Source: Streptomyces deccanensis (GTDB lineage Bacteria; Actinomycetota; Actinomycetes; Streptomycetales; Streptomycetaceae). Taken from it: DNA of 64,000 nt. The notes beneath the pieces were generated by a model. It was given only the letters and a program-made list of their open reading frames with translations. It did no database searches and was not told the origin of the DNA. Position numbers and translations under genes: made by a program. The DNA lies in assembly GCF_022385335.1 (NCBI RefSeq), contig NZ_CP092431.1, positions 8,804,001 through 8,868,000 on the forward strand. Reading direction: 5' to 3'. Numbering within the stretch: position 1 is the stretch's first letter; every line of letters begins with the position of its first letter. Of the stretch, positions 47,185 through 59,493 are shown piece after piece.

Positions 47185-47703
47185 TCAGACCCCGAAAGCG
47201 GTCGCATACCTGATGGTGCCGGACGCCACCGGCGCCGAACCGTCGAGGACCAGCGCCATCATCGCCTCGTCCGGTACCTCGAACCCCGGCCGGATGCCGT
47301 ACTCGGACGCACGTACGAAGCCGAACCGCGGGTAGTACTCGGGATGCCCGAGGACGAGGACGAGCCCCTCCCCACGCGCGCGTGCCGCCTCCAGCACGGC
47401 GCGTACGACGGCCGCTCCCGCCCCCTGCCGCTGGTGGTCCGGGAGCACCGCGACGGGGGCCAGCGCCAGCGCGGGCGTCTCGTCGACATGGCAGCGGGTG
47501 ATCAGCGCGTACGCCGCGATCGTGCCGTCCGGGGCCTCGGCGACGTACGACAGGTCCGCCAGCCAGGCGCCGGGGTCCTCGCGCAGCGCGTCGACCAGCC
47601 TGGCCTCCGCGTCGGTCTCGAAGGCGGCGGCGTTGACGGCGTACACCCCCTCGCGGTCGGCGGACGTCTCCGCTCGGGTGATCCAGTCGGTGGTCAGTGA
47701 CAC
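47185..47703 (-). CDS. GNAT-family N-acetyltransferase (YhbS-like)
   Basis: 172 aa. Acetyl-CoA-binding motif A is PVAVLPDHQRQGAGAAVVRA and the YhbS-type ending is LVLVLGHPEYYPRFGFVRAS. The substrate is unknown. The GTG at 47703 overlaps the last 10 bases of the CDF transporter gene, so the two are co-translated. Confidence 0.87.
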   Translation of the reverse strand: MSLTTDWITRAETSADREGVYAVNAAAFETDAEARLVDALREDPGAWLADLSYVAEAPDGTIAAYALITRCHVDETPALALAPVAVLPDHQRQGAGAAVVRAVLEAARARGEGLVLVLGHPEYYPRFGFVRASEYGIRPGFEVPDEAMMALVLDGSAPVASGTIRYATAFGV

Positions 47704-48811: not shown

Positions 48812-49783
48812 TCAGAGACCGCGATGCAGTCGCCAGCCCGCCCAGGCCGACTCGACCATCTCGCGCACCCCGCGCCGGGCCGTCCAGCCGAGCTCGCGCC
48901 GGGCCCGCTCGGCCGAGGCGACCGCGCGCGGGGCGTCCCCGGGGCGGCGGGGCTCGACGAGCGCGGTACGGCGGTCCCCGGTCACCTCGCCGATGAGGTC
49001 GACGAGTTCGCGGACCGAAACGCCCTCGCCCCGGCCGATGTTCACGGTCAGGTCGCCCGAGACGCCGCCGGCGCTGAGCCGTCGGGCCGCCGCGAGGTGC
49101 GCGTCGGCCAGATCGGCGACGTGGATGTAGTCCCGGACACAGGTGCCGTCCGGGGTCGGGTAGTCGTCGCCGAAGATCCTCGGGGCCTCGTCACGGGTGA
49201 GACGGTCGAAGACCATCGGGACGACGTTGAAGATGCCGGTGTCGGCCAGGGCGGGTTCGGCGGCGCCGGCCACGTTGAAGTAGCGCAGACACACGGTGGC
49301 GATGCCGTGGGCCTGCCCGGCCGCCCGGACCAGCCACTCCCCGGCCAGCTTGGTCTCGCCGTACGGGCTCATCGGGGCGCACAGGGTGTCCTCCGTGATG
49401 AGGTCCACGTCCGGGTTGCCGTAGACGGCCGCGGAGGAGGAGAAGAGGAAGCGCTCCACCCCGGCGGCGGCCGCAGCCTCCAGCAGCGTCGCGAGACCGC
49501 CGACGTTCTCCTGGTAGTACCGGGTGGGCTGGGCGACGGACTCGCCCACCTGCTTGCGGGCCGCGAGGTGGACGACACCGGTCACCGCGTGCTCGGCGAG
49601 CACGCGCTTGAGGAGGTCGCCGTCGAGGGCGGAGCCGTGGATCAGGGGGATGTCCTCGGAGAGGCGGCCGCGGACCCCCGCGGAGAGGTCGTCGAGCGCG
49701 ACGACCCGTTCGCCGGCCTCGGTCATGACCTTCGCCACGTGTGCGCCGATGTAGCCCGCCCCGCCTGTGATCAGCCATGTCAT
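48812..49783 (-). CDS. galE: UDP-glucose 4-epimerase
   Basis: 323 aa extended SDR. NAD motif TGGAGYIGAHVAKV, catalytic Ser in FSSSAAVYG and Tyr-Lys in SPYGETKLAGE, with LRYFNVAGA and RDYIHVADL as in GalE. It interconverts UDP-glucose and UDP-galactose. It is divergent from the polyol-phosphate/exporter cluster and may supply its sugar donor. Confidence 0.92.
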   Translation of the reverse strand: MTWLITGGAGYIGAHVAKVMTEAGERVVALDDLSAGVRGRLSEDIPLIHGSALDGDLLKRVLAEHAVTGVVHLAARKQVGESVAQPTRYYQENVGGLATLLEAAAAAGVERFLFSSSAAVYGNPDVDLITEDTLCAPMSPYGETKLAGEWLVRAAGQAHGIATVCLRYFNVAGAAEPALADTGIFNVVPMVFDRLTRDEAPRIFGDDYPTPDGTCVRDYIHVADLADAHLAAARRLSAGGVSGDLTVNIGRGEGVSVRELVDLIGEVTGDRRTALVEPRRPGDAPRAVASAERARRELGWTARRGVREMVESAWAGWRLHRGL

Positions 49784-50184: not shown

Positions 50185-51990
50185 CTGTCGACCGCCATCC
50201 TCACCGGTCAGCCGGTCCCCGGATCGTCGCTGGAGGGCGATCTGCGGTCGCTCGGCTTCGACGTGCGGACCGCCTCCGACGCCGGTGACACCGAGACGCT
50301 CCTGGCGACGGTGCCCGCGGACCAGCGGGTCGCGATCGTCGACGCCCGTTTCGTGGGCCATGTGCACGCGCTGCGCCTGGGACTCACCGACCCCCGCTTC
50401 GAGGCCGCCGCCCTCCCGGGCGCCGTGACCGTGCGGCCCGCCGCCCGTCAGGCGCTGACCCGGGCGCTGGCCCGCGAGAGCGCGGACGCCGGCGGCACCA
50501 CGGCCGTCGCCGTCGACAGCGTCGCCGACCGCGTCGTCGCCGCCCTCGACGCCGACGGCGTCAGCCTCCACCGGCCCGAACTCGGCACCCTGGTCGCCGC
50601 CGTCCCCGCCGACCCGCAGGCCCGCAACGAGGCCCGCCAGGCGGTCGCCGCCGTCGACGACGAGGCCGTACGGCTGCGCACGGCGGTGAAGTCCCGCGAC
50701 GGCTTCTTCACCACGTACTTCATCAGCCCGTACTCCCGCTACATCGCCCGCTGGTGCGCCCGCCGGGGCCTGACCCCGAACCAGGTCACCACGGCCTCGC
50801 TGATCACCGCCCTGATCGCGGCCGGCTGCGCGGCCACCGGCACGCGCGGCGGGTTCGTCGCGGCCGGCCTCCTCCTGCTCTTCTCCTTCGTCCTGGACTG
50901 CACCGACGGCCAGCTGGCCCGCTACTCGCTGCAGTACTCGACGCTCGGCGCCTGGCTCGACGCCACCTTCGACCGCGCCAAGGAGTACGCCTACTACGCG
51001 GGCCTCGCCCTCGGCGCCGCGCGCGGCGGTGACGACGTATGGGCCCTGGCCCTCGGCGCGATGGTCCTGCAGACCTGCCGTCACGTCGTCGACTTCTCCT
51101 TCAACGAGGCGAACCACGACGCCACCGCCAACACCAGCCCCACCGCCGCCCTCTCCGGCAAGCTCGACAGCGTCGGCTGGACGGTCTGGATCCGCCGCAT
51201 GATCGTCCTGCCGATCGGCGAGCGCTGGGCGATGATCGCGGTCCTCACGGCGGTCACCACACCCCGCATCACCTTCTACGCGCTGCTCATCGGCTGCGCC
51301 TTCGCCGCGACCTACACCACGGCGGGCCGCGTGCTGCGCTCGCTGACCCGCAAGGCGCAGCGCACGGACCGGGCGGCGCGGGCGCTGGCGGACCTCGCGG
51401 ACACCGGCCCGCTCGCCGAAGCGCTGGCGCGGCTCCTGCCGAGCCCGCCGCGCAAGACGGCACTGCTCAGCGCGGCCTTCGGAGCCGTGGCCGTGGTGAC
51501 CGCCGCCTGGGTCTGGGGCCCCTCCTGGCAGGTCGTCCTCGCGGCCGGGCTCCATGTCCTGCTGTCGGCGGAAGCCGTCGAGCGCCCCCTCAAGGGCGCC
51601 CTCGACTGGCTCGTTCCGCCCCTCTTCCGCGCCGCCGAGTACTGCGTCGTCCTGCTGCTCGCGGCCAAAGCCGAGGTGAACGGCGCCCTTCCTGCGGCTT
51701 TCGGGCTGGTGGCGGCCGTCGCCTACCATCACTACGACACGGTGTACCGCATCCGCGGCGACGCCGGCGCGCCGCCGCGGTGGCTGGTGCGGGCGATCGG
51801 CGGTCACGAAGGCAGGACCCTGCTGGTCACCGTCCTGGCCGCGCTGCTCGCGCCCACAGAGTTCACAGTCGCGCTCACGGCTCTCGCCGTGGCCGTGGCC
51901 CTGCTGGTGCTCCTCGAGAGCATCCGCTTCTGGGTGACCGCCCATAAAACAGGCGCACCCGCCGTACACGATGAAGGAGAACCCGCATGA
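50185..51990 (+). CDS. CDP-alcohol phosphatidyltransferase with DUF5941 domain
   Basis: 601 aa from CTG 50185, or 575 from GTG 50263. The N-terminal 175 residues have no recognised domain. The CDP-alcohol phosphotransferase motif D-x2-DG-x2-AR-x8-G-x3-D-x3-D is complete (DCTDGQLAR ... GAWLDATFD) at about 260-285 within a set of membrane helices. A C-terminal helical DUF5941 part has YHHYDTVYRIR and GGHEGRTLL. The upstream residues STAILTGQPVPGSSLEGDL look native, and GGGAG lies 9 bases before the CTG, so the true start may be that rare codon. First gene of the cluster; ATGA overlap with the next. Confidence 0.82.
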   Translation: MSTAILTGQPVPGSSLEGDLRSLGFDVRTASDAGDTETLLATVPADQRVAIVDARFVGHVHALRLGLTDPRFEAAALPGAVTVRPAARQALTRALARESADAGGTTAVAVDSVADRVVAALDADGVSLHRPELGTLVAAVPADPQARNEARQAVAAVDDEAVRLRTAVKSRDGFFTTYFISPYSRYIARWCARRGLTPNQVTTASLITALIAAGCAATGTRGGFVAAGLLLLFSFVLDCTDGQLARYSLQYSTLGAWLDATFDRAKEYAYYAGLALGAARGGDDVWALALGAMVLQTCRHVVDFSFNEANHDATANTSPTAALSGKLDSVGWTVWIRRMIVLPIGERWAMIAVLTAVTTPRITFYALLIGCAFAATYTTAGRVLRSLTRKAQRTDRAARALADLADTGPLAEALARLLPSPPRKTALLSAAFGAVAVVTAAWVWGPSWQVVLAAGLHVLLSAEAVERPLKGALDWLVPPLFRAAEYCVVLLLAAKAEVNGALPAAFGLVAAVAYHHYDTVYRIRGDAGAPPRWLVRAIGGHEGRTLLVTVLAALLAPTEFTVALTALAVAVALLVLLESIRFWVTAHKTGAPAVHDEGEPA

Positions 51991-52739
51991 TCGGCCTCGT
52001 GCTGGCGGCCGGCGCCGGACGGCGTCTTCGCCCCTACACCGACACCCTCCCCAAGGCTCTGGTGCCGGTCGGCCCCGAGGGCGACGAGGAGAGCCTCACG
52101 GTTCTCGACCTCACCCTCGGCAACTTCGCCGAGATCGGCCTGACCGAGGTCGCGATCATCGTCGGGTACCGCAAGGAGGCCGTCTACGAGCGCCGCGAGG
52201 CGCTGGAGGCCAAGTACGGGCTCAAGATCACCCTGATCGACAACGACAAGGCCGAGGAGTGGAACAACGCCTACTCCCTGTGGTGCGGCCGTGACGCCAT
52301 CAAGCACTCGGTGATCCTCGCCAACGGCGACACCGTGCACCCGGTCTCCGTCGAGAAGACCCTGCTCGCCGCCCGCGGCGACGGCAAGAAGATCATCCTC
52401 GCCCTCGACACGGTGAAGTCCCTCGCCGACGAGGAGATGAAGGTCGTCGTCGGCCCCGAGGGCGGCATGACCAAGATCACCAAGCTGATGGACCCGGCCG
52501 AGGCGACCGGCGAGTACATCGGCGTCACCCTCATCGAGGGCGAGGCCGCCGACGAGCTGGCCGACGCCCTGAAGACGGTCTTCGAGACGGACCCGCAGCA
52601 GTTCTACGAGCACGGCTACCAGGAGCTCGTGAACCGCGGCTTCCGCATCGACGTCGCGCCCATCGGTGACGTCAAGTGGGTCGAGATCGACAACCACGAC
52701 GACCTCGCCAAGGGACGTGAGATCGCGTGCCAGTACTGA
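51987..52739 (+). CDS. Sugar/polyol-phosphate nucleotidyltransferase (probable cytidylyltransferase)
   Basis: 250 aa. The N-terminal signature LVLAAGAGRRLRPYTDTLPKAL is that of the NTP-transferase fold, and the pattern (WNNAYSLW, ANGDTVHP) is close to LicC-type phosphocholine cytidylyltransferases. It would form a CDP- (or other NDP-) activated alcohol for the neighbouring CDP-alcohol phosphotransferases. Nucleotide and substrate are inferred from context. ATGA start overlaps the upstream stop, and its own end overlaps the next gene by 13 bases. Confidence 0.85.
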   Translation: MIGLVLAAGAGRRLRPYTDTLPKALVPVGPEGDEESLTVLDLTLGNFAEIGLTEVAIIVGYRKEAVYERREALEAKYGLKITLIDNDKAEEWNNAYSLWCGRDAIKHSVILANGDTVHPVSVEKTLLAARGDGKKIILALDTVKSLADEEMKVVVGPEGGMTKITKLMDPAEATGEYIGVTLIEGEAADELADALKTVFETDPQQFYEHGYQELVNRGFRIDVAPIGDVKWVEIDNHDDLAKGREIACQY

Positions 52740-53791
52740 CGAGGCTCATCCCCTCGCCGGTCGTCGTGGACATCCGTCCCGGCGCGCTCGATGATCTGGC
52801 GACGATCCTGTCGGACCAGCGCATCGCGCCGTCGGGCCGGCTGGCCTTCGCGATCAGCGGCGGCTCCGGGGCCGCGCTGCGCGACCGGTTCGCCCCCGCG
52901 CTGCCGGAGGCGGACTGGTTCTGCGACGCCGACGGCACCATCGACGGAGCGGTACGGCTCGCCGACTCGATCAAGAAGGGCGGTCACTACGACGCCGTGG
53001 TCGGGCTCGGCGGCGGCAAGGTCATCGACTGCGCCAAGTACGCGGCCGCCCGGGTGGGCCTGCCGCTGGTCGCCGTCGCCACCAACCTGGCCAACGACGG
53101 TCTGTGCTCCCCGGTGGCGACCCTCGACAACGACGCGGGCCGCGGCTCCTACGGGGTGCCGAACCCGATCGGCATCGTCATCGACCTGGACGTCATCCGT
53201 GAGGCCCCGGTGCGCTTCGTGCGGGCCGGCATCGGCGACGTGATCTGCAAGATCTCCGCTGTCGCCGACTGGGAGCTGTCCAGCCGGGAGACCGGTGAGA
53301 AGGTCGACGGACTGGCCGCCGCCATGGCCCGCCAGGCCGCCGAGGCAGTCCTGCGCCACCCCGGCGGGGTCGGCGACGACGACTTCCTGACCACGCTCTC
53401 CGAGTCCCTCGTGCTGTGCGGGATCTCCATGTCCGTGGCCGGCGACAGCCGTCCCGCCTCGGGCGCCTGTCATGAGATCAGCCACGCGTTCGACCTGACG
53501 TTCCCCAAGCGGAACGCCCTGCACGGCGAACAGTGCGGTCTCGGCGGCGCGTTCGCCACCTTCCTGCGCGGCCACCACGAGATCGCGGGCCAGATGACCG
53601 AGGTGCTGCGCCACCACGGCCTGCCCGTCCTCCCGGACGAGATCGGCTTCACGGTCGACGAGTTCGTCCAGGTCGTGGAGTTCGCCCCGCAGACCCGGCC
53701 GGGCCGCTACACCATCCTGGAACACCTCGAACTGAGCACCGAACAGATCAAGGACGCCTACGCCGACTATGCCAAAGCCATCAGTAGCTGA
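52727..53791 (+). CDS. Iron-containing alcohol dehydrogenase family, glycerol-1-phosphate dehydrogenase-like
   Basis: 354 aa. NAD site GLGGGKVIDCAKYAA, VATNLANDGLCSPVA, and metal ligands Asp/His/His in ICKISAVADWEL, HEISHAFD and NALHGEQ. These place it with EgsA/AraM sn-glycerol-1-phosphate dehydrogenases rather than with ordinary alcohol dehydrogenases. Such enzymes reduce dihydroxyacetone phosphate to glycerol-1-phosphate, the archaeal-type stereoisomer, rare in bacteria. The GTG start lies inside the upstream gene, and its end overlaps the next gene by 23 bases. Product identity is unproven. Confidence 0.85.
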   Translation: MPVLTRLIPSPVVVDIRPGALDDLATILSDQRIAPSGRLAFAISGGSGAALRDRFAPALPEADWFCDADGTIDGAVRLADSIKKGGHYDAVVGLGGGKVIDCAKYAAARVGLPLVAVATNLANDGLCSPVATLDNDAGRGSYGVPNPIGIVIDLDVIREAPVRFVRAGIGDVICKISAVADWELSSRETGEKVDGLAAAMARQAAEAVLRHPGGVGDDDFLTTLSESLVLCGISMSVAGDSRPASGACHEISHAFDLTFPKRNALHGEQCGLGGAFATFLRGHHEIAGQMTEVLRHHGLPVLPDEIGFTVDEFVQVVEFAPQTRPGRYTILEHLELSTEQIKDAYADYAKAISS

Positions 53792-54548
53792 GCTGCGCCC
53801 GGTCGTGCACCCCCCGGGTGTGAAGGACCGGCGCAGCGGTGAGCACTGGGCCGGCCGGCTCTACATGCGCGAGATCTCGCTGCGGATAGACCGGCACCTG
53901 GTGAACACCCGGGTCACGCCCAACCAGCTGACCTACCTGATGACCGTCTTCGGCGTCCTCGCCGCCCCGGCCCTGCTGGTGCCGGGCATCCCGGGCGCCG
54001 TCCTCGGTGTGCTGATGGTCCAGCTGTACCTGCTGTTCGACTGCGTCGACGGCGAGCTCGCCCGCTGGCGCAAGCAGTACTCGATGACCGGCGTCTACGT
54101 CGACCGGGTCGGCGCCTACCTGTGCGATGCCGCCGTCCTCGTCGGCTTCGGGCTGCGCGCGGCCGACCTGTGGGGCACCGGCCGCATCGACTGGCTGTGG
54201 GCCTTCCTCGGCACGCTGGCCGCGCTCGGCGCGATCCTGATCAAGGCCGAGACGGACCTCGTCGGCGTCGCCCGGCACCAGACGGGCAAGCCGCCGGTCC
54301 AGGAGTCGGCCGCCGAGCCGCGCTCCTCCGGCATGGCGCTGGCCCGCAGGGCCGCCGCCGCCCTGAAGTTCCACCGGCTGATCCTCGGCGTCGAGGCCTC
54401 CCTGCTGATCCTGGCCCTCGCGGTCGTGGACCAGATCCGGGGCGACCTCTTCTTCTCCCGGGTGGGCGTCGCCGTCCTGGCCGGTATCGCGCTGCTCCAG
54501 ACCCTGCTGCACCTGGTGTCGATCCTCGTCTCCAGCAGGCTGAAGTGA
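53769..54548 (+). CDS. CDP-alcohol phosphatidyltransferase family protein (second copy)
   Basis: 259 aa, about six membrane helices. The motif reads DCVDGELAR ... GVYVDRVGA: the last Asp of D-x2-DG-x2-AR-x8-G-x3-D-x3-D is Ala. That Asp is normally the catalytic base, so either this subfamily uses another residue or the enzyme has altered activity. RVTPNQLTYLM is typical of actinobacterial members. It follows the G1P-dehydrogenase-like gene with a 23-base overlap and is coupled to the glycosyltransferase by GTGA. Confidence 0.85.
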   Translation: MPKPSVAELRPVVHPPGVKDRRSGEHWAGRLYMREISLRIDRHLVNTRVTPNQLTYLMTVFGVLAAPALLVPGIPGAVLGVLMVQLYLLFDCVDGELARWRKQYSMTGVYVDRVGAYLCDAAVLVGFGLRAADLWGTGRIDWLWAFLGTLAALGAILIKAETDLVGVARHQTGKPPVQESAAEPRSSGMALARRAAAALKFHRLILGVEASLLILALAVVDQIRGDLFFSRVGVAVLAGIALLQTLLHLVSILVSSRLK

Positions 54549-55429
54549 GCGGCGGCATGAAGGTCGGCGCGGTGATCATCACCATGGGCAACCGCCCCGA
54601 CGAGCTCCGCGCCCTCCTCGACTCGGTCGCCAAGCAGGAGGGCGACCGGGTCGAGGCGGTCGTCGTCGGCAACGGCTCGCCCGTCCCGGACGTCCCCGAG
54701 GGCGTCCGGACGGTCGAGCTGCCCGAGAACCTCGGCATCCCCGGCGGCCGCAACGTCGGCATAGAGGCGTTCGGCCCCAGCGGCCGGGACGTCGACGTCC
54801 TGCTCTTCCTCGACGACGACGGCCTGCTCGCCCACCACGACACCGCCGAACTCTGCCGGCAGGCCTTCGAGGCCGACCCGAGGCTCGGCATAGTCAGCTT
54901 CCGCATAGCCGACCCCGACAACGGCGAGACCCAGCGCCGGCACGTGCCCCGGCTGCGGGCCTCCGACCCGATGCGCTCCTCCCGGGTCACCACCTTCCTC
55001 GGCGGCGCCAACGCCGTCCGCACCCAGGTCTTCGCCGAAGTCGGCGGTCTCCCGGACGAATTCTTCTACGCGCACGAGGAAACCGACCTGGCATGGCGGG
55101 CCCTCGACGCGGGCTGGATGATCGACTACCGGTCCGACATGGTGCTGTACCACCCCACGACCGCGCCCTCCCGGCACGCGGTCTACCACCGCATGGTCGC
55201 GCGCAACCGCGTCTGGCTCGCCCGCCGCAACCTCCCGGCCCCGCTCGTCCCGGTCTACCTGGGCGTCTGGCTGCTGCTGACGCTTCTCCGCAAGCCGTCC
55301 GGACCGGCGCTGAAGGCCTGGTTCGGCGGCTTCAAGGAGGGCTGGACGAGCACCTGCGGTCTCCGCCGGCCCATGAAGTGGCGTACGGTGTGGCGGCTGA
55401 CCCGGCTGGGACGGCCTCCCGTCATCTGA
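54545..55429 (+). CDS. GT2-family glycosyltransferase
   Basis: 294 aa GT-A fold: AVIITMGNRPDELRALLDSV, PENLGIPGGRNVGIE, metal-binding LFLDDDG, and acceptor motif FYAHEETDLAWRALDAGW. Resembles rhamnosyl- or galactofuranosyl-type transferases acting on lipid-linked or surface glycans. Starts at GTG 54545 (overlap with the upstream stop) or ATG 54557. A C-terminal hydrophobic segment (VYLGVWLLLTLL) suggests membrane attachment. Confidence 0.87.
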   Translation: MSGGMKVGAVIITMGNRPDELRALLDSVAKQEGDRVEAVVVGNGSPVPDVPEGVRTVELPENLGIPGGRNVGIEAFGPSGRDVDVLLFLDDDGLLAHHDTAELCRQAFEADPRLGIVSFRIADPDNGETQRRHVPRLRASDPMRSSRVTTFLGGANAVRTQVFAEVGGLPDEFFYAHEETDLAWRALDAGWMIDYRSDMVLYHPTTAPSRHAVYHRMVARNRVWLARRNLPAPLVPVYLGVWLLLTLLRKPSGPALKAWFGGFKEGWTSTCGLRRPMKWRTVWRLTRLGRPPVI

Positions 55430-55524
55430 CAAGCTCGAAATCTGAGAGCATTCGGCCGTACCCGGTCCAGGTTTCCGCCTCGGCCCGACCAGGCTGCGCA
55501 CTTTGAGGACGAAAGTTTCCATTT

Positions 55525-56454
55525 GTGAGTGAGACAACGCATGACGGCAGGGTTGTGGTGAGCGACCGTCCGTCGCCCGACGACGGGCTCTCCGCGACGG
55601 AACTGGCCGCCAAGTACGGGCTCGCCGTGAGCGGCGCCCGGCCCGGACTCGTGGAGTACGTCCGCCAGATGTGGGGGCGGCGCCACTTCATCCTCGCCTT
55701 CTCCCAGGCGAAGCTCACCGCGCAGTACAGCCAGGCCAAGCTCGGCCAGCTGTGGCAGGTGGCCACCCCGCTGCTCAACGCGCTGGTGTACTTCCTGATC
55801 TTCGGCCTGATCCTCAACGCCGACCGGGGCATGTCGCGCGAGGTCTACATCCCGTTCCTGGTCACGGGTGTCTTCGTGTTCACCTTCACGCAGAGCTCGG
55901 TGATGGCCGGCGTCCGCGCGATCTCCGGCAACCTGGGCCTCGTGCGCGCCCTGCACTTCCCGCGCGCCTCGCTGCCCATCTCCTTCGCGCTCCAGCAGCT
56001 CCAGCAGCTGATGTTCTCGATGATCGTGCTGTTCTGCGTCGCGGTCGGCTTCGGCAGCTATCCGCGTCTGTCCTGGCTGCTGATCATCCCGGTGCTGGTG
56101 CTGCAGTTCCTCTTCAACACCGGCCTCGCCCTGATCATGGCCCGCATGGGCGCGAAGACCCCGGACCTCGCGCAGCTGATGCCGTTCGTGATGCGGACCT
56201 GGATGTACGCCTCCGGCGTCATGTTCTCCATCCCGGTCATGCTCGCCGACCACCCCAAGTGGATCGCCGACGTCCTCCAGTGGAACCCGGCGGCGATCTA
56301 CATGGACCTGATGCGCTTCGCGCTGATCGACGGCTACGGCTCCGAGAACCTGCCCCCGCACGTGTGGGCGGTCGCCGGCGGCTGGGCCGTGCTGATCGCG
56401 CTCGGCGGCTTCGTGTACTTCTGGAAGGCGGAGGAGAGGTACGGCCGTGGCTGA
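55525..56454 (+). CDS. ABC-2 type polysaccharide/polyol-phosphate exporter permease (TagG-like)
   Basis: 309 aa. A cytoplasmic N-terminus of about 65 residues leads to six membrane helices (NALVYFLIFGLIL; FLVTGVFVFTFTQSSVMAGV and others). SQAKLGQLWQVATPLLNAL is the ABC2_membrane entrance helix of TagG, Wzm and RfbD permeases. It moves lipid-linked glycopolymers across the membrane together with the ATPase encoded next, whose start overlaps it by 8 bases. The GTG at 55525 follows GAAAGTTTCC. Confidence 0.9.
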   Translation: MSETTHDGRVVVSDRPSPDDGLSATELAAKYGLAVSGARPGLVEYVRQMWGRRHFILAFSQAKLTAQYSQAKLGQLWQVATPLLNALVYFLIFGLILNADRGMSREVYIPFLVTGVFVFTFTQSSVMAGVRAISGNLGLVRALHFPRASLPISFALQQLQQLMFSMIVLFCVAVGFGSYPRLSWLLIIPVLVLQFLFNTGLALIMARMGAKTPDLAQLMPFVMRTWMYASGVMFSIPVMLADHPKWIADVLQWNPAAIYMDLMRFALIDGYGSENLPPHVWAVAGGWAVLIALGGFVYFWKAEERYGRG

Positions 56455-57214
56455 GTCACTCATCCCCACCGTCATCGCGGACGAGTTGCACATCGTCTAC
56501 CGCGTCAACGGCGCCAAGACCGGCAAGGGCAGCGCGACCGCCGCCCTCAGCCGCATCCTCAAGCGCGGCGAGGAGCGGGGCGTCCGCAAGGTGCACGCCG
56601 TCAAGGGCGTCTCCTTCGTCGCCTACCGGGGTGAGGCCATCGGCCTCATCGGCTCCAACGGCTCCGGCAAGTCCACCCTGCTGCGGGCGATCGCCGGTCT
56701 GCTGCCGGCGGAGAAGGGCAAGGTCTACACCGACGGCCAGCCCTCGCTGCTCGGCGTCAACGCCGCCCTGATGAACGACCTCACGGGCGAGCGCAACGTC
56801 ATATTGGGCGGCCTGGCGATGGGCATGTCCCGCGACCAGATCAAGGAGCGCTACCAGGGGATCGTCGACTTCTCCGGCATCAACGAGAAGGGCGACTTCA
56901 TCACCCTGCCGATGCGCACCTACTCCTCCGGCATGGCGGCCCGGCTGCGCTTCTCCATCGCGGCCGCGAAGGACCACGACGTGCTGATGATCGACGAGGC
57001 CCTCGCCACCGGCGACCGCGCCTTCCAGAAGCGCTCCGAGGCCCGCATCCGCGAACTGCGCAAGGAGGCCGGCACGGTCTTCCTGGTCAGCCACAACAAC
57101 AAGTCCATCCGCGACACCTGCGACCGCGTCCTGTGGTTGGAACGCGGCGAACTCCGCATGGACGGCCCGACCGACGAGGTGCTCAAGGAATACGAGAAGT
57201 TCACGGGCAAGTAG
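56447..57214 (+). CDS. ABC-2 exporter ATP-binding protein (TagH-like)
   Basis: 255 aa. Walker A GSNGSGKST, the polysaccharide-exporter signature YSSGMAARLRFSIA, Walker B VLMIDEALATGD and H-loop LVSHNNKSI. Its length and lack of a C-terminal extension show there is no Wzt-type glycan-binding domain, as in TagH. Partner of the permease upstream. It closes the cluster 11 bases before a strong terminator. Confidence 0.92.
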   Translation: MAESLIPTVIADELHIVYRVNGAKTGKGSATAALSRILKRGEERGVRKVHAVKGVSFVAYRGEAIGLIGSNGSGKSTLLRAIAGLLPAEKGKVYTDGQPSLLGVNAALMNDLTGERNVILGGLAMGMSRDQIKERYQGIVDFSGINEKGDFITLPMRTYSSGMAARLRFSIAAAKDHDVLMIDEALATGDRAFQKRSEARIRELRKEAGTVFLVSHNNKSIRDTCDRVLWLERGELRMDGPTDEVLKEYEKFTGK

Positions 57215-57225
57215 CCCCGCACGAC

Positions 57226-57260
57226 CCGGGCCCCGCCGGAACTGCTCCGGCGGGGCCCGG
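57226..57260 (+). terminator. Strong terminator of the cluster
   Basis: A perfect 15-bp stem, CCGGGCCCCGCCGGA with TCCGGCGGGGCCCGG, around ACTGC, 11 bases after the exporter ATPase stop. Confidence 0.9.
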
Positions 57261-57581
57261 CGTCTGCAAGGGATACCGGGGGAGGCGCTCGTCCGGCACA
57301 CCGGGGACGGCATCCGCAAAGGAAACGCCAACTTCGGCAAGGAAGCGTCAACTCCGGCCGCCCATAGGAATCTTGGGGGCAATCGGTGCGTTCTTGTGAT
57401 GTGCAGGACACCCCCACGGAGCATGGTGCGTTGTAGAACGTAAGCTGTACCGGTGCCGAATCGCGGCAAGTAGGTCCATAATGCGCGACACCCGGCATCA
57501 GCCGCAGACGCCGCCCACCGGGCGGCGTGTCCGAAATAGTGGGTATTGGGTCGGCAGTGTAGAACGGGAGATGTGACGGCC
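57261..57581 (+). promoter_or_regulatory. Promoter and leader region of the hopanoid operon
   Basis: About 320 bases without a convincing long ORF. It contains a CATAAT -10-like element near 57477 and, in the would-be leader, a perfect hairpin CGCCGCCC-ACC-GGGCGGCG (57509-57527). Two GGTGCGTT copies lie further upstream. No regulator site could be named. Confidence 0.45.
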
Positions 57582-57647
57582 ATGGCTACGGAGACTCCCC
57601 AGCGCAACCACGCTTCTGCCGTTCCCGCGCCGGGTGACGAGCGGTGA
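57582..57647 (+). CDS. Candidate 21-codon leader ORF upstream of hpnC
   Basis: ATG at 57582 reads MATETPQRNHASAVPAPGDE then R and TGA at 57645-57647, which overlaps the GTG start of hpnC (GTGA). GGGAG lies 11 bases upstream. The overlap suggests translational coupling of hpnC to this small frame, or that hpnC translation is gated by it. It may equally be chance. Confidence 0.4.
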   Translation: MATETPQRNHASAVPAPGDER

Positions 57648-58546
57648 CCGAAACCGGGACGGCGCGCACCGCGGACCCGGAGCGCGACACCCTCGACAAG
57701 GCCGGGGCCGAGAACTTTCCCGTCGCCCCGTTCTTCCTGCCCAGGGCCTGGCGCGACGACCTCATGGCCGTCTACGGCTTCGCCCGCCTCGTCGACGACA
57801 TCGGCGACGGCGACCTCGCCCCCGGCGGCGCCGACGCCCGCCTCCTGGGCCTCGCCCCGCAGGACGCCGACGACCGGCTGCTCCTCCTGGACGCCTTCGA
57901 GGCCGACCTCGGCAAGGTCTTCGACGGCACCCCGAACCACCCCCTGCTGCGCAGGCTGCGGCACACCGTCCGCCGCCGCTCCCTCGCCCCCGAGCCGTTC
58001 CTCGCGCTGATCGCCGCCAACCGCCAGGACCAGCTGGTCAAGCGGTACGAGACCTACGACGACCTGCTCGCCTACTGCGCGCTGTCCGCCAACCCCGTCG
58101 GCCGGCTGGTCCTCGCCGTCACCGGAGCGACCACCCCCGAGCGGGTCCGGCACTCGGACGCGATCTGCACCGCGCTGCAGATCGTCGAACACCTCCAGGA
58201 CGTCGCCGAGGACCTGCGCCGCGACCGGGTCTATCTGCCCGCCGCGGACCTGAAGCGCTTCCACGTCCAGGAGACGGACCTCGCCGCGCCCACCGCGGGC
58301 GCGTCGGTGCGCGCGCTGATCGCGTACGAGGCGGAACGCGCCGGAGCCCTCCTCGACGAGGGCGCCCCCCTCGTGGGCAGCGTCCACGGCAGGCTGAGGC
58401 TGCTCCTCGCCGGGTTCGTGGCGGGCGGAAGGGCGGCCGTCCACGCGATCGCCGCCGCCGAGTTCGACGTACTTCCCGGCCCGCCCAAGCCCGGCAAGCT
58501 CCGGCTGCTGCGCGAGGTGGGCGCGACCCTGCGAGGAGAGGGGTGA
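57644..58546 (+). CDS. hpnC: Hydroxysqualene synthase-type protein HpnC
   Basis: 300 aa squalene/phytoene synthase family. The two Asp-rich motifs are ARLVDDIGD and AEDLRRDRVYLP; AENFPVAPFFLP is the HpnC opening. In the three-enzyme bacterial route HpnD makes presqualene diphosphate, HpnC converts it to hydroxysqualene and HpnE reduces that to squalene. The GTG start overlaps a small upstream frame, and its stop overlaps the hpnD start (GTGA). Confidence 0.92.
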   Translation: MTETGTARTADPERDTLDKAGAENFPVAPFFLPRAWRDDLMAVYGFARLVDDIGDGDLAPGGADARLLGLAPQDADDRLLLLDAFEADLGKVFDGTPNHPLLRRLRHTVRRRSLAPEPFLALIAANRQDQLVKRYETYDDLLAYCALSANPVGRLVLAVTGATTPERVRHSDAICTALQIVEHLQDVAEDLRRDRVYLPAADLKRFHVQETDLAAPTAGASVRALIAYEAERAGALLDEGAPLVGSVHGRLRLLLAGFVAGGRAAVHAIAAAEFDVLPGPPKPGKLRLLREVGATLRGEG

Positions 58547-59493
58547 TCCGGACCGTGGAGTCGGAACCACACGTGTCCGCGCCGGTACTCGCCGCCTACA
58601 GCTACTGCGAGGCCGTCACCGGACAGCAGGCCCGCAACTTCGCCTACGGCATCAGGCTGCTGCCGACGCCCAAGCGCCGCGCGATGTCCGCGCTGTACGC
58701 GCTCTCCCGACGGGTCGACGACATCGGTGACGGCGCCCTCGCGATCGAGGTCAAGGCGGCCCGCCTGGAGGAGACCAGAGCACTGCTGACCCGCGTCAGG
58801 GACGGCTCGGTCGACGAGGACGACACCGACCCCGTCGCCGTCGCCCTCGCCCACGCGGCGGCCGCCTTCCCGATCCCGCTCGACGCCCTCGACGAACTCA
58901 TCGACGGCGTCCTCATGGACGTACAAGGCGAGCACTATGAGACCTGGGACGACCTGAAGGTCTACTGCCGCTGTGTCGCCGGAGCCATCGGGCGGCTCTC
59001 GCTCGGTGTCTTCGGCACGGAACCCGGGGCGCGCGGTGCGGAACGCGCGCCCGAGTACGCCGACACCCTCGGACTCGCGCTCCAACTCACCAACATCCTC
59101 AGGGACGTTCGCGAGGACGCGGAGGGCGGGCGCACCTATCTGCCGTCCGACGACCTCGCCAAGTTCGGCTGCTCGGCGGGGTTCGCCGGGCCGCTGCCAC
59201 CCGCCGACTCCGACTTCGCGGGTCTGGTGCACTTCGAGGTGCGCCGGGCCCGCGCCCTGTTCGCCGAGGGGTACCGGCTGCTGCCGATGCTCGACCGCCG
59301 CAGCGGCGCCTGTGTCGCCGCCATGGCAGGCATCTACCGCCGGTTGCTCGACCGCATCGAGCGCGAGCCGGAGGCCGTGCTGCGCGGGCGCGTCTCACTG
59401 CCCGGCAGGGAGAAGGCCTACGTCGCCGTGCGCGGCCTCTCCGGTCTGGACGCCCGCCATGTGTCACGCCGTACCGTCAGGAGGCGCGTGTGA
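58543..59493 (+). CDS. hpnD: Presqualene diphosphate synthase HpnD
   Basis: 316 aa. Asp-rich motifs SRRVDDIGDG and NILRDVREDAEGGRTYLP, with RNFAYGIRLLP and YCRCVAGAIGRLS, identify the HpnD branch. It condenses two farnesyl diphosphates. The GTG at 58543 overlaps the hpnC stop; GTG 58555 is an alternative. About 136 bases separate it from hpnE. Confidence 0.92.
   Translation: MIRTVESEPHVSAPVLAAYSYCEAVTGQQARNFAYGIRLLPTPKRRAMSALYALSRRVDDIGDGALAIEVKAARLEETRALLTRVRDGSVDEDDTDPVAVALAHAAAAFPIPLDALDELIDGVLMDVQGEHYETWDDLKVYCRCVAGAIGRLSLGVFGTEPGARGAERAPEYADTLGLALQLTNILRDVREDAEGGRTYLPSDDLAKFGCSAGFAGPLPPADSDFAGLVHFEVRRARALFAEGYRLLPMLDRRSGACVAAMAGIYRRLLDRIEREPEAVLRGRVSLPGREKAYVAVRGLSGLDARHVSRRTVRRRV

Follow-up and report, generated by a model that had tools for sequence, protein, structure and literature searches.

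The closest described relatives of the locus analyzed here are the wall teichoic acid pathway (TagD, TagF, TagGH), the archaeal glycerol-1-phosphate dehydrogenase (G1PDH) EgsA together with AraM of Bacillus subtilis, the IPCT-DIPPS and AF2299 enzymes, and eukaryotic CHPT1 and CEPT1. The locus comprises seven genes, A–G, on one strand (50185–57214) of a 64,000-nucleotide stretch, referred to in the following as the window, of the Streptomyces deccanensis genome (10.1 Mb in one contig). We propose that it encodes a dedicated pathway that produces cytidine diphosphate (CDP)-activated sn-glycerol 1-phosphate (G1P) and builds it into a lipid-linked glycoconjugate, a reading to which we give slightly more than an even chance. 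Like the wall teichoic acid pathway, the locus combines a CDP-glycerol logic with a TagH-like ATPase; unlike it, the locus holds no TagF, no TagD scored over the cut-off in 150 Streptomyces genomes, the opposite glycerol enantiomer is predicted, and CDP-alcohol phosphotransferases replace the PF04464 enzymes. Compared with EgsA and AraM, the gene C protein belongs to a separate bacterial clan, its partner is a cytidylyltransferase, and the genus sample has no PcrB/GGGPS. The same two chemistries are found in IPCT-DIPPS and AF2299, and gene A has a cytidylyltransferase-like N-terminal domain fused to a transferase; unlike those systems, the cluster adds a separate enzyme B, a G1PDH, a C-terminal DUF5941, a GT2 protein and an exporter.

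A Streptomyces locus with araM, tagG, tagH, a CDP-alcohol transferase, a GT2 gene, a nucleotidyltransferase and crtB was described as teichoic-acid-associated in a 2026 synteny paper (PMC13118837). In section 3.10, part 1 and passages of that paper, no pathway is given and neither G1P nor CDP-1-glycerol is proposed. Passages of a 2021 paper state that CDP-1-glycerol is likely absent in bacteria and free G1P in the vast majority of them; some known enzymes accept both enantiomers in vitro when making CDP-glycerol, and G1P is the preferred substrate of an activity from Archaeoglobus (PMC8262930). Elsewhere CDP-1-glycerol appears in mammalian work and, in an excerpt of PMC11666461, as the rejected enantiomer in an assay, while bacterial G1PDH genes form a deep clan in the published trees of the relevant part of PMC6431249. 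We found no proposal in the open-licence literature that bacteria make CDP-1-glycerol from their own G1P. The link between the locus and teichoic acid has already been published by name; the CDP-1-glycerol reading is new within the open-licence literature searched, some of it in excerpt. Each part is of a known kind; what is new is how the parts are combined and which precursor is predicted.

The dehydrogenase and its cytidylyltransferase partner

The structure model of gene C was closer to archaeal G1PDH and B. subtilis AraM than to the listed glycerol dehydrogenases, except for 3ce9, with which there was a tie, and it was close to a G1PDH structure bound with dihydroxyacetone phosphate (DHAP). 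Residues D171, H249 and H266, which we take to be the Asp/His/His metal ligands of G1PDHs, were well conserved in two sets of relatives: both His were present in every protein, and the Asp in all 22 of one set and in 19 of 20 of the other, where L071 has Glu. An SRPxSG stretch that three GldAs lack was likewise shared by all 22 proteins of the one set and by 19 of 20 of the other (L106 has another residue in place of Arg). The stretch is not diagnostic, because it also served as a search pattern and is missing from a Shinella protein with a G1PDH annotation. Because the PRK00843 score of 220.8 bits is below the equivalog cut-off of 413, we refer to the protein as G1PDH-type. In the tree, archaeal G1PDHs fell into a starred group of their own, which also took in a single row bearing the label bacterium (L202), and the bacterial C relatives formed a separate clan; a test of one clade without GldA and DHQS gave p-AU 0.123, with a long GldA branch. 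A G1PDH-like dehydrogenase had been predicted originally, and by fold and profile C is indeed nearer to the G1P enzymes than to most glycerol dehydrogenases. The tree rooted against the long-branched outgroups (GldA, AraM and DHQS) was not decisive. Recent transfer of gene C from archaea was unsupported, since the archaeal enzymes group apart, L202 excepted. Based on fold, family and metal site, gene C is predicted to reduce DHAP to G1P.

Gene B carries an NTP_transferase domain, and its nearest solved relatives are cytidylyltransferases: the closest PDB entries were LicC (4.3e-12), a PntC fusion (4.7e-7) and the nucleotidyl transferase 4jd0 (7.3e-7). Its match to the inositol-1-phosphate cytidylyltransferase profile (5e-11) was below the cut-off, and the best 120 homologues listed were near copies only, the named ones from Streptomyces. 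The protein is most likely a LicC/PntC-type cytidylyltransferase, predicted to convert cytidine triphosphate (CTP) and G1P to CDP-1-glycerol.

Pairing between B and C was counted in the best 80 of 585 loci for an actinobacteria-weighted C-family profile query, and the counts are therefore not a census. B lay within 1 kb of C in none of 35 archaeal loci, 19 of 27 bacterial loci outside Streptomyces and 18 of 18 Streptomyces loci; beyond 1 kb, in about 322, 269 and 241 kb for the three groups in turn, it was found once in archaeal, once in other bacterial and never in Streptomyces loci. The 19 paired loci came from Actinomycetota (13), Bacillota (3), Kerfeldbacteria (1), Chloroflexota (1) and WOR-3 (Caldifarciminota; 1), and three Alphaproteobacteria loci and two other WOR-3 loci had no adjoining B. 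The cytidylyltransferase-like protein of the original prediction was thus confirmed by its domain and as the usual neighbor of C in bacteria. A C relative on a Nitratidesulfovibrio plasmid (L104:11983-13032) had no annotated B neighbor and was located near secretion-system genes.

Since the archaeal loci in this set carry the enzyme without B and the bacterial ones often have B beside it, the pairing fits a route from G1P to CDP-glycerol rather than to ether lipids. Archaeal-type ether lipid synthesis, in the manner of B. subtilis AraM feeding PcrB, could make use of a G1PDH-type enzyme, and in the relevant part of one survey some Streptomyces are credited with orthologues of G1PDH, GGGPS and DGGGPS (PMC6431249). 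However, PcrB/GGGPS (PF01884) was matched in 0/150 Streptomyces and in 7/14 control genomes, and B has no role in such a route. The lack of PcrB/GGGPS and of a curated TagD in the 150 genomes makes a new CDP-glycerol route plausible, and we rejected an archaeal ether lipid product as extremely improbable. The same gene architecture might also serve another alcohol, with C reducing a different phosphorylated ketone and B activating the resulting polyol. The sub-cut-off score and separate clan of C, and the distance of B from every named cytidylyltransferase, are consistent with this, but the likeness of the C model to DHAP-bound G1PDH argues against it, as does, non-diagnostically, the SRPxSG stretch; we regard this explanation as distinctly unlikely.

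Gene C was found in 150/150 Streptomyces genomes sampled (E 1e-30 or better) and in 43/396 Actinomycetota genomes at 1e-25, 31 of them outside Streptomyces. The 20 Streptomyces loci fetched consisted of 15 main loci and five second copies of C. All 15 main loci opened had A–G followed by hpnC–hpnD, with ~3 kb separating G from hpnC in L086 and L096, and the same gene order was seen in 18/18 named Streptomyces loci of the separate C-family profile set, one of which (L185) ends inside A at a contig end. The cluster is therefore real and conserved across Streptomyces above chance expectation, and its position beside hpnC and hpnD makes a functional tie to hopanoids possible. Among the second copies (L091, L095, L097, L099, L100), three had B, L097 had a broken B and L095 had none; they sit between genes that, by eye, resemble RNase E and ribosomal protein L21/Obg.

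Twenty distant actinobacterial loci were also compared. Genes B, C, D and E were all present in L064, L066-L069 and L071, most of which also had A and some F and G. L072 was reduced to C-D-E, and the short contig L070 held A and C. B and C occurred without D in L065, L073, L077, L079, L081 and L082, and C without B in L074-L076, L078, L080 and L083.

Phosphotransferases and predicted glycosylation and export

The AlphaFold model of gene A (pLDDT 89.9) gave fold matches to AF2299, IspD/PntC and CEPT1/CHPT1. Its motif, D1xxD2GxxAR...GxxxD3xxxD4, is intact, with all four Asp kept, as it is in 29/30 best A matches per locus, although for six of these (L073-L076, L078, L080) the match is partial and to a different CDP-OH protein; in the one remaining locus, L082, only a piece of 18 amino acids was called. 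An NTP_transf_3 label was present on 9/120 listed relatives, and when four were rescanned, three fell just under the Pfam cut-off and one had no match. By sequence, gene A is a CDP-alcohol phosphotransferase, and the model suggests that it is perhaps of the lipid-acceptor type.

The membrane part of gene A fitted the ten-helix cholinephosphotransferases best in one of two comparisons. DUF5941 (residues 395–601, 51367-51987) may correspond to the helix 7–10 half of the CEPT1-like fold. When it was tested as an internal repeat of helices 3–6, the expected helix aligned without significance (E 0.083 and 0.16), and a third cut (E 0.032) aligned another stretch. A full-text literature search found no paper on DUF5941. 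A rival reading is a Kennedy-type route, in which A would place glycerol-1-phosphate from CDP-1-glycerol on diacylglycerol to give ordinary phosphatidylglycerol with its natural head-group stereochemistry. We take E129 and H133 of CHPT1 to lie within the CDP-alcohol phosphotransferase motif; unlike the eukaryotic enzymes, gene A has no Glu or His at the equivalent places and keeps D4, and Foldseek preferred AF2299, with an E of only 0.011 for CHPT1/CEPT1. The two residues are catalytic in CHPT1 (PMC10182977), and phosphatidylglycerol is among the Gro1P-containing molecules named in the passages of PMC8262930. A phosphatidylglycerol product would also leave the recurring GT2 and exporter genes unexplained, and we consider its chances slim.

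Gene D scored over the cut-off of the Pfam CDP-OH_P_transf domain despite an incomplete motif, in which the first three Asp are kept and the fourth is Ala. D4 was missing in 24/24 D orthologues (Ala in 14, His in 10) and was Arg in two Bacillota. Such D4-less paralogues were noted at 53769-54548 and in L064-L107, L133 and L137, and most modules holding one also have an intact transferase, although none was seen in L071, L072, L166 and L175. Gene D may be a pseudo-enzyme partner of A or may carry out a new chemistry. The locus had been predicted to encode two CDP-alcohol phosphotransferases; by Pfam family it does, and A has the intact motif, but D lacks the fourth Asp.

A GT2 transferase and a TagGH-like exporter had likewise been predicted, and the Pfam families of E, F and G were as stated. 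Gene G fell below the TagH equivalog cut-off, and the sequence comparison suggests that F and G may work like TagGH. The module recurs with export genes in other phyla. A like arrangement was found in two Bacillota: in Marinithermofilum, Pfam identified GT2, D-type, B, C, ABC permease and A-type genes, and an ATPase was recognized by its similarity to G; in Marininema, tblastn and the motif identified D-type, B, C, F, G and A-type genes. A polysaccharide flippase stands immediately upstream of B–C in one Kerfeldbacteria and one WOR-3 locus. Archaeoglobus makes compatible solutes of the diglycerol phosphate or glycerophosphoinositol type, and the N-terminal and catalytic parts of A resemble AF2299 and IPCT-DIPPS, so that a soluble product of this kind could be imagined for the locus. 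The presence of GT2, ABC exporter or flippase genes beside the module in several phyla makes this very improbable. Phosphonate as a general product was rejected: the locus is in 150/150 genomes, but phosphoenolpyruvate mutase was over the cut-off of 319.6 bits in 2/61 genomes; five more genomes scored 277–313 bits, and the source genome had no match.

Supply and demand for CDP-glycerol

The source genome had no match at all to TagD (TIGR01518), and its PF01467 matches were limited to genes that, by eye, look like NadD and CoaD. Across the 150 Streptomyces genomes, TIGR01518 matches at E 0.001 were present in 100, and 61 had a distant TagD-like protein at 1.1e-13 or better. In one case (L114:702-1941), the sole such Streptomyces locus listed, a TagD-like protein of 168 amino acids adjoins another CDP-alcohol phosphotransferase. 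TagF-family (PF04464) proteins were found in 142/150 genomes, and the source genome has four such genes at 4.07–4.10 Mb (G000:C1:4071578-4099211), in a second envelope region that also holds paralogues of galE (66%), F (68%) and G (85% identity). The original prediction that TagB, TagF and TagD are absent therefore stands for TagD over the whole genome, but for TagB and TagF only at the locus.

These results invite a housekeeping explanation, in which B and C replace TagD and feed TagF-family polymerases elsewhere, A and D being a side use. The abundance of PF04464 without a curated TagD is consistent with this, as are the grouping of the galE, F and G paralogues with TagF-like genes and the TagF-like genes divergent from B–C in L081 (near Solirubrobacteraceae, judged by its relative L131), close to the module in L064 and in the sequence fetched around 4/5 second copies of C. 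The last observation is weak, because in Streptomyces such genes may lie close to where the second copies sit in any case. Conversely, no TagF-like gene occurred in the sequence fetched around the 15 main loci, C was kept in eight genomes without a PF04464 match, 61/150 genomes have a distant TagD-like protein, and the capsule polymerase Cps7C accepts only CDP-3-glycerol in the excerpt of PMC11666461. We consider this explanation unlikely, but by no means negligible, and still favor the dedicated pathway. From the sequence, B–C is the best candidate for a CDP-glycerol source in the source genome and perhaps serves more than this locus.

Locus layout and predicted pathway

The seven-gene order and Pfam families were as originally predicted, and so was the divergent galE (Table 1). 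The predicted stop–start overlaps exist at A/B (-4), B/C (-13), C/D (-23) and F/G (-8), whereas D/E and E/F have gaps of 8 and 95 bp. The junction lengths were the same in 16/16 (A/B), 16/16 (B/C), 15/16 (C/D) and 13/16 (F/G) Streptomyces loci. Gene A starts with a CTG codon in the correct frame, and most of 16 Streptomyces relatives have TTG or GTG at the same place or at most three codons away (L088 and L096 were called longer). The strong terminator said to close the cluster is most likely the hairpin listed in Table 1, which was missed by a T-dependent terminator scan because it has no T-run. Outside the cluster, an open reading frame resembling an acetyltransferase by eye (47185-47703) is located between idi and a cation-efflux gene, which are adjacent in S. 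fungicidicus (L105).

Table 1. Features of the locus, in window coordinates.
Feature	Position	Strand	Description	Support
galE	48812..49783	-	UDP-glucose 4-epimerase; divergent neighbor, possible UDP-Gal supply	TIGR01179, 318 bits (cut-off 262)
A	50185..51990	+	601 amino acids; cytidylyltransferase-like N-fold (1-157), CDP-alcohol phosphotransferase (motif 238-263), DUF5941 (395-601)	Pfam
B	51987..52739	+	NTP_transferase; predicted CTP:glycerol-1-phosphate cytidylyltransferase	Pfam
C	52727..53791	+	Fe-ADH_2; glycerol-1-phosphate-dehydrogenase-type enzyme	Pfam
D	53769..54548	+	Second CDP-OH_P_transf protein, with Ala in place of the fourth motif Asp	Pfam
E	54557..55429	+	GT2 glycosyltransferase, start ATG 54557	PF00535, E 2.8e-11
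F	55525..56454	+	ABC-2 permease, galactan Wzm/KpsM-like	PF01061; NF050109 3.8e-13 (below cut-off)
G	56447..57214	+	ABC ATPase, TagH/Wzt-like	PRK13546 TagH, E 4.8e-54, 183.5 bits (cut-off 320)
Hairpin	57223..57264	+	GC-rich, without T-run; likely terminator	-43.1 kcal/mol, z -6.28, 0/200 shuffles equally stable
hpnC/hpnD	57644-59493		Downstream of cluster	Names taken from L105 annotation

In the pathway that we propose, C would reduce DHAP to G1P, as its fold, family and metal site suggest, and B, by its family and conserved pairing with C, would join G1P to CTP to give CDP-1-glycerol. A, with its intact motif and fold, would then move glycerol-1-phosphate from the CDP-alcohol onto a membrane lipid alcohol, while D, having lost the catalytic base, may assist, regulate or use a different chemistry. 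E would add a sugar, perhaps, on weak grounds, galactose supplied through galE. Finally, F and G would carry the lipid-linked product outward, consistent with their TagGH/Wzm-Wzt-like families and with the flippases beside B–C in other phyla. The original prediction was right on the type of pathway, with a CDP-activated polyol transferred to a lipid, glycosylated and exported; the substrates, stereochemistry and product are predicted from sequences and models.

More broadly, several bacterial phyla, including every Streptomyces sampled, might run an opposite-handed CDP-glycerol pathway, in which a G1PDH with its own cytidylyltransferase supplies a Kennedy-type phosphotransferase building exported, lipid-linked sn-glycerol-1-phosphate glycans; we hold this tentatively, at somewhat less than an even chance. 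If true, the archaeal glycerol enantiomer would be a surface precursor of old standing and wide use in bacteria, with no dependence on archaeal lipids, and G1P and CDP-1-glycerol should occur in bacteria. Bacterial G1PDH genes would have a use without archaeal lipids, which bears on the lipid-divide debate, and a conserved Streptomyces envelope locus beside hopanoid synthesis would gain named, predicted substrates.

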